Source: an uncultured Pelagibacteraceae bacterium
Lineage (GTDB): Bacteria; Pseudomonadota; Alphaproteobacteria; Pelagibacterales; Pelagibacteraceae
Direction of reading: 5' to 3'
Length of the DNA: 64,000 nucleotides
Assembly: GCA_902608385.1 (NCBI GenBank)
Contig: CACLNT010000001.1
Span: 1-64,000, forward strand
Part shown: positions 43,833-46,485 of the stretch, in pieces
How the letters are laid out: each line of letters starts with the position of its first letter
Numbering within the stretch: the first letter of the stretch is position 1
Program-made: the position numbers and the translations under genes
The notes under the pieces: model-generated
What the model saw: only the letters and a program-made list of their open reading frames with translations
What the model was told of the DNA's origin: nothing
Database searches by the model: none

Positions 43833-43850
43833 AATTGCGTACTTTTTATT
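43825..43850 (+). terminator. Intrinsic terminator overlapping the stop of the HD-domain gene
   Basis: CGCAAT-AAA-ATTGCG hairpin (43825-43839) followed by TACTTTTTATT. Confidence 0.7.
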
Positions 43851-44223
43851 TGCTAGGTAGACCCGATTTTTTCCAACCCAGATTTTCAGAGTTGCCTAAA
43901 AAGCCATCTGAAATATTTACACAATTGTAACCTTCTTTTGTTAAAAGTTCTGCAGTCGATTGAGATCTAACACCCCCCATGCATATGGTTAATATTTCAT
44001 GGTCTTTTTCAATATTTAGCTTTTTAAAATCTTCAATAAAATTTTGATTAAAAGTTTTGTCAGCAAACTGAATTGTTAAAAAATGGGTTTTTAATAAAAT
44101 TTTTTCACCATCTGGCTTTCCATCAGAATTCCATTCTTCTTCAGTTCTCACATCAAGTAACACTGATTTAGGATTATTTTTTACATAATCCTTTACCTCT
44201 TTGCTTAGCATTTGTTTAATCAT
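43846..44223 (-). CDS. Rhodanese-like domain protein
   Basis: LLDVRTEEEWNSDG, ICMGGVRSQSTAELLTKEGY. Confidence 0.92.
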   Translation of the reverse strand: MIKQMLSKEVKDYVKNNPKSVLLDVRTEEEWNSDGKPDGEKILLKTHFLTIQFADKTFNQNFIEDFKKLNIEKDHEILTICMGGVRSQSTAELLTKEGYNCVNISDGFLGNSENLGWKKSGLPSK

Positions 44224-44251: not shown

Positions 44252-45310
44252 TTATGCTTTATTTCTATAGTCTTTTATATGTTTTGGAATTCGTTTATTT
44301 TTTCCAAACATATAATGATTTTCCATGTTTTCTCTATATTTGCTAGCAGGAACTTTTAATCCCACTGATTCAGCAACTTCTCTAATTAACATAGGGGTTG
44401 CTCCACAACAAACACCTAAATAATTTATTCCTAAATCATAAGCTTCTTTTGCAAACTGTCCAATTTCATATCTGCTACATTGCATTGGATCTAAGGCTGT
44501 AGGAAAAGTTGTTTCATGAGGTGAAGGGCAAGAACATCCATTATCATCAGGCAAATTAAAAAAAGTTGGATGATCATCAGTTGTTCTATAAGTGATGGGT
44601 AGTCCAGCAACATGGCACTTTAGCTCTTTTCTAATCTCTTTTAGATAAGGCATCATTGTATTGGGTCCCCTATGACAATTCATCCCTACTACGTCTCCTC
44701 CTATTTGCTCTAATTCCTTACAAGTATCAAGAATAGAAATTCCATCTCTCATAATATTTTCACCATATGGAGCAATAGTAATCACAGACGGAAGTCCGGT
44801 TTCTTTCATTATTTTTAAAGCTGTGTATGCTTCTTCTGCATAATAAAAAGTTTCACCAATTAAAATGTCTGCGCCTTCATCTACTGCCCAAGCCACCATT
44901 TCCTGAAACATTTTTTCTACTTCTAATTGGGATTTTTTATCATTTTGATTCCAAATGTTTGAATTTGAAATATTTCCAGCCATTAAATTTTCTTCTTTAC
45001 CCATTGGACTAATTGCAACATCTTTTGCAATTTGTAATGCTGCTCTATTAAGAGGTTCTAGCAACTCCTCTTTGCCAATAACACGCATTTTTTCTCTGTG
45101 TCCGTTATAAGTAAATGCCTGGACAATATCTGAACCTGCGTGCTGAAAATCTCTATGTAAATTTAATAAAGCTTCAGGATTTTCTAATGAGACCATTGGA
45201 ACAAACTCTCCAGAAGACATATAGCCTCTCTTTTCTATTTCAAAAAGAAAACCTTCTGCACATATAACGGGACCTTTGTCTAATCTTTCTTTTAAACTTC
45301 TTTTTTTCAT
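44252..45310 (-). CDS. bhmT: Betaine/homocysteine S-methyltransferase family protein
   Basis: Homocysteine-methyltransferase Cys motifs (GMNCHRG, GVCCGATP), ICAEGFLFEIEKRGY; start moved to ATG 45310 with GGAG 7 nt upstream (track start 45322 is a TTG). Confidence 0.9.
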   Translation of the reverse strand: MKKRSLKERLDKGPVICAEGFLFEIEKRGYMSSGEFVPMVSLENPEALLNLHRDFQHAGSDIVQAFTYNGHREKMRVIGKEELLEPLNRAALQIAKDVAISPMGKEENLMAGNISNSNIWNQNDKKSQLEVEKMFQEMVAWAVDEGADILIGETFYYAEEAYTALKIMKETGLPSVITIAPYGENIMRDGISILDTCKELEQIGGDVVGMNCHRGPNTMMPYLKEIRKELKCHVAGLPITYRTTDDHPTFFNLPDDNGCSCPSPHETTFPTALDPMQCSRYEIGQFAKEAYDLGINYLGVCCGATPMLIREVAESVGLKVPASKYRENMENHYMFGKNKRIPKHIKDYRNKA

Positions 45311-45379
45311 TTTTTTCTCCAAACTAATGGAGAAAAGAAGCCCATTAAATTAACTAAATGGGAAATAAATTGAGCCCTT

Positions 45380-45440
45380 TTCTCCTTTTTAGTGCTTTAG
45401 CTTTTACTGGGTGCACAATATGGTTCAAATACCCGGTTTA
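45380..45440 (-). promoter_or_regulatory. SAM-V riboswitch aptamer
   Basis: Minus strand ACCGGGUAUUUGAACCAUAUUGUGCACCCAGUAAAAGCUAAAGCACUAAAAAGGAG: H-type pseudoknot GGGU/ACCC (45431-34 with 45409-12) and GUGC/GCAC (45413-16 with 45392-95), GCUAAA core; 5' of bhmT. Confidence 0.85.
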
Positions 45441-45458
45441 TTAATTGAGAAATGATTC

Positions 45459-45488
45459 AAAAAAAAACCACCTACTAAAGAGGTGGTT
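45459..45488 (-). terminator. Intrinsic terminator downstream of the SAM-II aptamer
   Basis: Minus strand AACCACCU-CUUUAGU-AGGUGGUU followed by a run of U. Confidence 0.93.
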
Positions 45489-45497
45489 CACGTGGAA

Positions 45498-45558
45498 ACA
45501 TCTATTTAGCAGGATTTTATATAGCGCCCCGCAATTCGACTTAAATCAGCGCTGATGT
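45498..45558 (-). promoter_or_regulatory. SAM-II riboswitch aptamer
   Basis: Minus strand ACAUCAGCGCUGAUUUAAGUCGAAUUGCGGGGCGCUAUAUAAAAUCCUGCUAAAUAGAUGU: P1 AGCGC/GCGCU, pseudoknot GCGGG/CCUGC, conserved GCUGAUUUAA and GCUAAA segments. Confidence 0.9.
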
Positions 45559-45627
45559 AAAGTTATTGTAAGCAAATTAATAAATCAATGATAAAAAATA
45601 TATATATAAATTTATAACAATTTTTAA

Positions 45628-46485
45628 ATGAACCTTACAAATCAAAAAAAAGGCTCCCTTCTAGCATTTATAGCTGTATTTCTTATTACTCCAGACTCTC
45701 TACTAATTAGATTATCCAGTATAGAGACCTGGGGAATGTTGTTCTATAGAGGAGCAATACCTTTTGTGTTTGTTTTAATCGGTACATTGATTTTTTATAA
45801 TAAAAATTTTCTTAAAGTGCTGTTTGGAATAGGTTATCCAGGAATATTTTACATTTTCAGTTTCTCTGCATGTAATATTACTTTTATAATATCTATTCAA
45901 AATACTAACGTTGCCAATACTTTGGTAATGATTGCTCTAGCTCCCATGCTTTCTGCTATATTGGGGTCCATATTTTTAAAAGAAACGCCAGACAAAAAAA
46001 CCTGGACTGCAATAATAATAACTTTTCTAGCTTGTGTTTATATTTTCTATGACTCGCTTAATTTAGGTAACTTTTATGGGGATTTTTTCGGCCTAGTGAC
46101 AGCATTTGGTCTTGCTTGTAATGCTATTTTAGCAAGATATGCCAAAGATAGAGATCTTGTTCCATCGGCAGTAATAGGTAAGCTATGTGTTGCTATATTT
46201 GCCTTTTTCTTTGTAAAAAACTTCGAATTAGTTGGAAATGATATAATTTTTGTTCCTCTGATGTGTATTATGTGCGTAGCCATACCTTTTGTTTTAGTTA
46301 CGATAGCTCCAAGATTTATTACTGCTGCTGAGGTTAATCTTTTTTTTCTACTAGAAACTATACTGGGTCCAGTTTGGGTATGGTTAGTTATTAAAGAACA
46401 ACCTAGTTTAGAAACTATATTAGGTGGCTCAGTGATCATATTAACAATTGGAATTCATTCTTTCTTAGCCTTAAAAAAAATATAA
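45628..46485 (+). CDS. EamA/DMT-superfamily transporter
   Basis: About 10 TM helices in two repeated EamA halves. Confidence 0.85.
   Translation: MNLTNQKKGSLLAFIAVFLITPDSLLIRLSSIETWGMLFYRGAIPFVFVLIGTLIFYNKNFLKVLFGIGYPGIFYIFSFSACNITFIISIQNTNVANTLVMIALAPMLSAILGSIFLKETPDKKTWTAIIITFLACVYIFYDSLNLGNFYGDFFGLVTAFGLACNAILARYAKDRDLVPSAVIGKLCVAIFAFFFVKNFELVGNDIIFVPLMCIMCVAIPFVLVTIAPRFITAAEVNLFFLLETILGPVWVWLVIKEQPSLETILGGSVIILTIGIHSFLALKKI

Follow-up and report, generated by a model that had tools for sequence, protein, structure and literature searches.

SAM-II and SAM-V in tandem before bhmT of a SAR11 bacterium: a probable OFF switch with a covarying antiterminator

Introduction

The leader of bhmT in the SAR11 genome investigated here contains two riboswitch aptamers in series and very probably acts as an OFF switch at two levels. 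On the minus strand of the 64-kb stretch of DNA that was analysed (the window), the elements run in the order SAM-II aptamer, intrinsic terminator, SAM-V aptamer, further hairpins, bhmT. Few cells in the ocean are as abundant as those of SAR11 bacteria, which depend on riboswitches in handling reduced sulfur.

Judged by sequence, the leader belongs to a published tandem arrangement in which SAM-II, an intrinsic terminator and SAM-V precede a methionine gene. The SAM-II/SAM-V tandem was described in 2009 by Poiata et al., as cited in PMC5069961, PMC11508383 and PMC9481103. In 2016 'Ca. P. ubique' was described as the only sequenced organism with the pairing (PMC5069961), and a 2022 survey, which counts 149 tandems, has SAM-II terminating transcription and SAM-V then controlling the ribosome-binding site (PMC9481103). 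An initial annotation of this DNA had placed SAM-II, a terminator and SAM-V in this order upstream of bhmT and had called the system known. Both statements hold, on the SAM-V score (68.3 bits), the match of the protein to BHMT structures (E 5e-47) and the published tandems (PMC9481103, PMC5069961, PMC11508383). What that annotation missed is the switch itself, the pairing of CCUGCUAAAUAG with the loop and 3' arm of the terminator. How does SAM-II throw its switch? Comparison of about 60 relatives probably fills this in.

The bhmT locus

The gene and its surroundings are as follows.

43846..44223, minus strand: rhodanese-domain protein of 125 aa (PF00581, E 5.9e-9), starting 28 nt after bhmT
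44252..45310, minus strand: bhmT, betaine-homocysteine S-methyltransferase of 352 aa, ATG at 45310 (PF02574, E 1.8e-34)
45565..45594, minus strand: candidate promoter with TTATCA and TACAAT 18 nt apart, some 12 nt ahead of SAM-II P1

The nearest solved relatives of the protein are BHMT structures, and it is 77% identical to bhmT of strain HTCC1062. From the spacing, the rhodanese-domain gene probably shares a transcript with bhmT. The candidate promoter matches the consensus at 9 of 12 positions, which is no better than chance for the region; of the 62 leaders, 53 have a -10-like hexamer 10–24 nt ahead of P1, but in AT-rich DNA.

Among 78 distinct upstream regions, 62 contain SAM-II, the terminator and SAM-V. 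These tandem leaders divide into 31 with an extended stretch between SAM-V and the gene (including the window and HTCC1062), 28 direct and three longer leaders.

The SAM-II aptamer

45501..45554, minus strand: SAM-II aptamer (model R1 58.0 bits, E 1.1e-13; RF00521 22.5 bits, sub-threshold)
45553-45549 and 45527-45523, minus strand: P1, AGCGC with GCGCU
45532-45528 and 45513-45509, minus strand: pseudoknot (P2), GCGGG with CCUGC
45510-45505, minus strand: SAM-contacting segment GCUAAA

The conserved GAUUU, UUGC and GCUAAA segments and an H-type pseudoknot with P1 and P2 are all present. The elements that the initial annotation had named on the minus strand, GCUGAUUUAA among them, were recovered in place, and the named segments together exceed chance. 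Only one leader among the 62 has the outer ACAUC/GAUGU pairing that it had added, and even the nearest relatives (L084, L033 and L034) lack it, so it has been dropped. Over the 62 leaders P1 is paired in 98.4% and P2 in 87.9%, and UUGC and GCUAAA are invariant; since both helices are almost invariant, covariation speaks neither for nor against them.

A covariance search for SAM-II, suggested as a check on the element, gave a split result. The Rfam SAM_alpha model (RF00521) reached 22.5 bits (E 0.021 in 1.6 kb), short of its gathering score of 36, and SAM-V was the sole match above threshold in an Rfam search of the whole window. The experimentally verified SAM-II of HTCC1062 bhmT, for which a KD of 1.2 uM has been reported (PMC5069961), scores 15.5 bits with RF00521, below both the window element and the cut-off. 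Because the verified element fails too, this cut-off is not a valid criterion for SAM-II before SAR11 bhmT, and the lack of a significant RF00521 match is a false negative. R1, a covariance model made from 36 relatives whose antiterminator strand is GCG, the HTCC1062 element included, gave the opposite answer. The window and its near kin, which have the other antiterminator type, were left out of its training, and it nevertheless scored the window at 58.0 bits (E 1.1e-13 in 64 kb, filters off), with SAM-V as runner-up at 12.4 bits. R1 has five base pairs only, so this score tests homology to the HTCC1062 element more than structure. The sequence thus identifies the window SAM-II as a homologue of an experimentally verified SAM-II, and it is predicted to bind SAM. 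In the rest of the same genome R1 finds one further SAM-II-like place (31.6 bits), preceding a same-strand gene that we take from its context to be metX.

The terminator and a proposed antiterminator

45459..45488, minus strand: intrinsic terminator, AACCACCU (45488-45481) with AGGUGGUU (45473-45466), and nine U (45467-45459)
45502..45513, minus strand: antiterminator 5' strand CCUGCUAAAUAG, which shares bases with the 3' strand of the pseudoknot and with the SAM pocket
45471..45482, minus strand: antiterminator 3' strand CUCUUUAGUAGG, which shares bases with the loop and 3' arm of the terminator

The strong hairpin and U-run reported downstream of SAM-II were confirmed as the only terminator in a scan of 45200-45800, where 0.4 would be expected from shuffles; its stem is 97.8% paired over the 62 aligned leaders. 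Intrinsic terminators are commonly intergenic, and this one might belong to a neighbouring transcript and form no switch, but that can hardly be so: the gene upstream of the leader (45628-46485) lies on the opposite strand and reads away from bhmT, so no minus-strand gene ends here.

In the best fold of 45562-45452, the 3' segment of SAM-II, CCUGCUAAA, pairs with UUUAGUAGG in the loop and 3' arm of the terminator. An alignment was made of 62 distinct stretches, from SAM-II to the U-run, upstream of bhmT relatives. In it the proposed 12-pair antiterminator helix has 90.7% of its cells paired, and three of its pairs change on both sides. Pair 53x78 is CG in 42 leaders, AU in 18, GU in one and UG in one, and is broken in none of the 62. 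Pair 52x79 is G-C in 43, U-A in nine and unpaired in ten, including the window; pair 45x86 is unpaired in 32 of 62. Taken together, P1 and the antiterminator helix have 31 compensatory cells, against a shuffled mean of 9.0, and a covariation score of 0.113, against 0.048 for shuffled and at most 0.014 for slid alignments. Column 53 is unpaired in both the aptamer and the terminator state. Some of the variation in column 78 is shared by two states, since this column also pairs inside the terminator (78x86). The leaders' own antiterminator strands pair at -15.25 kcal/mol, compared with -12.35 kcal/mol when strands are swapped, and none of 5000 permutations was as good, in a test that, like the other strand swaps here, ignores the relatedness of the leaders.

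On the bhmT protein tree, column 53 changes at least ten times and column 78 at least eight; on well-supported branches the independent changes number three concordant, none discordant and one unchanged, too few for significance. Over the 62 relatives in the bhmT tree, the type of leader (extended versus other) switches 12 times or more, and the upstream neighbours differ, which suggests that leaders or gene-plus-leader cassettes have been exchanged between genomes. Because of this possible exchange, the tree counts of covariation are a guide only.

Folding of partial transcripts gives a pattern that looks like that of a switch decided during transcription. Every one of the 62 leaders has the antiterminator in its predicted minimum-energy fold when the RNA ends just past the first GG of the terminator 3' arm; once the arm is complete, the number falls to 48. 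With the whole terminator included, the best fold in the window is the terminator, so its antiterminator must win by forming first.

Published work on HTCC1062 can be set beside this. There the antiterminator strands are nt 44-52 and 66-78 in the published numbering, anchored on U82-U90, and U46 and A47 fall in the SAM pocket, in agreement with PMC11508383. In the same study SAM-II in the refolded tandem RNA gave no response to SAM unless linker contacts were disturbed, truncated SAM-II did respond, the SAM-sensitive linker was C68-C110, and primer 3 restored SAM-II binding (PMC11508383). The antiterminator strands lie within or adjoin this linker, and primer 3 pairs downstream of both. The antiterminator may account for the unresponsiveness of SAM-II to SAM in RNA that includes the linker; the data are consistent with this and are not proof of it.

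The same experiments could be read as showing that SAM-II is present but hardly used, with the terminator a constant partial stop and SAM-V the sole regulator, in that the SAM-II domain of the full-length HTCC1062 RNA barely responds to SAM in vitro (PMC11508383). We think this improbable. The RNA probed was full-length and refolded, a state in which the antiterminator would mask SAM-II, and the truncated aptamer responds. Moreover, SAM-II and the terminator are kept in nearly all of the bhmT leaders found, even in two without SAM-V (L105 and Francisella L079), and the antiterminator covaries with a strand outside the SAM pocket.

The two-level OFF switch would then work as follows. SAM-II is transcribed first. 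At low SAM, CCUGCUAAAUAG would be free to capture the emerging CUCUUUAGUAGG before the rest of the terminator 3' arm appears, and the polymerase would pass. At high SAM, the pseudoknot would sequester CCUGC and the SAM pocket UAAA, barring the antiterminator; AACCACCU would then pair with AGGUGGUU and transcription would end at the U-run. In transcripts that are read through, SAM-V would sense SAM again and govern translation. This order of folding, and all of the translational control by SAM-V, we infer. Both bhmT mRNA and protein of HTCC1062 rise on sulfur exhaustion (PMC5069961), which, by analogy, is the direction expected of an OFF switch.

SAM-V and the extended platform

45379..45443, minus strand: SAM-V aptamer (RF01826 68.3 bits, E 5.1e-9; gathering score of 41 passed)
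45423-45422, minus strand: CC, probable P2a partner in SAM-V, by analogy with PMC6061858
45385-45382, minus strand: GGAG1, at the SAM-V 3' end
45329..45385, minus strand: hairpin H1, GGAGAAAAG... from 45385 with ...CUUUUCUCC ending at 45329, pairing GGAG1 with CUCC
45332-45329, minus strand: CUCC, anti-Shine-Dalgarno (anti-SD) strand
45313..45336, minus strand: hairpin H2, UUUUCUCC (45336-45329) with GGAGAAAA (45320-45313)
45320-45317, minus strand: GGAG2, the Shine-Dalgarno sequence (SD) of bhmT, hidden by H2

SAM-V is typically at most ten nucleotides from the start codon (PMC2704228). In the extended leaders GGAG1 lies roughly 60-80 nt before the AUG (71 nt in the window), and these leaders keep the aptamer GGAG1, a CUCC-like strand and a second SD, which can form mutually exclusive hairpins. 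In 30 extended leaders H1 folds at -19.6 kcal/mol with its own arms and -14.3 with swapped arms (0 of 5000 as good, relatedness ignored); H2, at -9.1 versus -7.9 kcal/mol, is less well supported than H1.

A tentative reading, which we rate as somewhat short of probable, is that GGAG1 serves as a decoy SD: a single anti-SD strand would pair either with it or with the real SD, 61 nt further on. This relay of H1 against H2 might, with the same reserve, apply to half of the SAR11 bhmT leaders, HTCC1062 included. In the published model of SAM-bound SAM-V, helix P2a takes in part of the SD (PMC6061858); SAM should therefore free GGAG1 from H1, letting H2 hide GGAG2. With SAM, the aptamer would probably hold GGAG1, and CUCC would pair with GGAG2 and block bhmT; without SAM, GGAG1 would pair with CUCC and GGAG2 would be released. 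In the window H1 can extend into P2 of SAM-V (ACUAA with UUAGU), which would sharpen the competition. In predicted folds of the extended leaders, mean pairing of GGAG2 is 0.99 with GGAG1 blocked and 0.62 with it unblocked. For the window copy the relay is only a proposal, because its GGAG2 is paired at 0.99 even with GGAG1 free, and its folding points only weakly to a function for the extended platform.

Could SAM-V act more simply, by occluding only GGAG1, which would recruit ribosomes to the AUG 71 nt on while H1 and H2 merely shape the leader? Such action at a distance has a precedent in Sinorhizobium metA, where an SD controlled by SAM-II reportedly contributes to initiation at a site 74 nt further along (PMC9373788), and GGAG1 is invariant in 30 extended leaders. 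We nevertheless consider direct occlusion unlikely, since a proper SD (GGAG2 or GAGG) adjoins the AUG in all extended leaders compared and H1, which sequesters GGAG1, covaries strongly. It is far less likely still that GGAG1 starts a short leader ORF to which translation of bhmT is coupled. Leaders L106-L111 have an ATG 6 nt after GGAG1 and, read from sequence, an ORF ending at or just inside the bhmT start. In the window, however, none of ATG, GTG and TTG occurs in the 16 nt next to GGAG1, and a frame is open to bhmT in only 15 of 30 extended leaders. General coupling was rejected for the window on these grounds and would at most be a feature of one clade; in L106-L111 the short ORF (e.g. MKSINSLNRFHLSPVK...) spans H1/H2 to the bhmT start and coupling is possible.

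Two other readings of H1 were discarded. It is not a second intrinsic terminator, as it is without a U-run after it and the scan gave one terminator only, and the similarity of H1 to mir-7940 at 45384-45328 (19.6 bits, cut-off 80) is due to chance. A C-rich motif (CCCUC, UUCCC, CCUCU or CUCCCUC) is present in the H1 loop of nearly all extended leaders, in sequences otherwise unlike; in the window it is CCC (45363-45361). No pairing partner for it was found that fits all extended leaders.

Comparison with known systems

The HTCC1062 leader is the closest of the known systems compared. It precedes the same gene, with SAM-II, a nine-U terminator, SAM-V and an extended platform before bhmT, and it shares both the antiterminator and the GGAG/CUCC/GAGG layout with the window. 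The antiterminator is UAG/CUC in the window, whereas it is GCG/CGC in HTCC1062; P1 and the loops differ too, and the HTCC1062 leader has been verified in vitro, whereas the window copy is known from sequence. Sinorhizobium metZ likewise has SAM-II followed by an intrinsic terminator that is predicted to form on SAM binding (PMC9373788); the window, in contrast, adds SAM-V and bhmT downstream. With the SAM-V of metY (PMC6061858) the window shares the whole aptamer, including its AAAAAGGAG 3' end, but differs in that its AUG lies behind H1/H2 with its own SD.

Distribution and variant leaders

SAM-II, the terminator and SAM-V precede bhmT across many SAR11 genomes. The same series, in extended and direct forms, is found in genus g5 (L134, L138-L140, L145 and L146), where the gene that follows looks like metY, encoding an O-acetylhomoserine sulfhydrylase-like protein.

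Four leaders (L069, L073, L076 and L080) are long, at 150-215 nt. After SAM-V these have GGAGAAAATGAGCAA or a similar sequence, what may be an upstream ORF of some 45 codons and a UGAGCAA/UUGCUCA hairpin, and then a CUCC-like strand and second SD. One tandem leader (L132, G141:C7) has H1 with no second SD or long ORF found after it, and is possibly the remnant of a lost bhmT. Another, upstream of bhmT in L070, looks decayed, with GCAAAA for GCUAAA, a mismatched terminator (GGUAGU) and UGUGUACC in SAM-V. Upstream of three bhmT relatives of SAR86 or gammaproteobacterial origin (L074, L075 and L077) there appears to be a SAM-II-like element without terminator or SAM-V; R1 matched L074 only, at 18 bits. 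A Gracilibacillus bhmT relative (L085) has, as read from its sequence, an apparent SAM-I (S-box) leader with a terminator.

In HTCC1062, SAM-V places at 1127359, 1005818 and 732787 lie within the intergenic regions that PMC2704228 gives for bhmT, metY and mmuM. A fourth SAM-V (L118:664-728, minus strand, 57.6 bits), directly downstream of bhmT, is not one of the three quoted from the 2009 table and could explain the induction of osmC alongside bhmT.

Conclusions

The gain from this comparison is mechanistic detail for a known tandem system, together with the under-calling by RF00521 of SAM-II before SAR11 bhmT. The Rfam SAM_alpha cut-off misses these elements, and the tandem would be undercounted in surveys using it. 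If a covarying antiterminator competes for the strand with which SAM-II binds SAM, the silencing of SAM-II by the linker in refolded tandem RNA has a simple reading: the switch would be thrown while transcription is under way, and RNA that has been read through should be insensitive. If the relay is true, an indirect SAM-V expression platform stands behind the SAM-II antiterminator switch.
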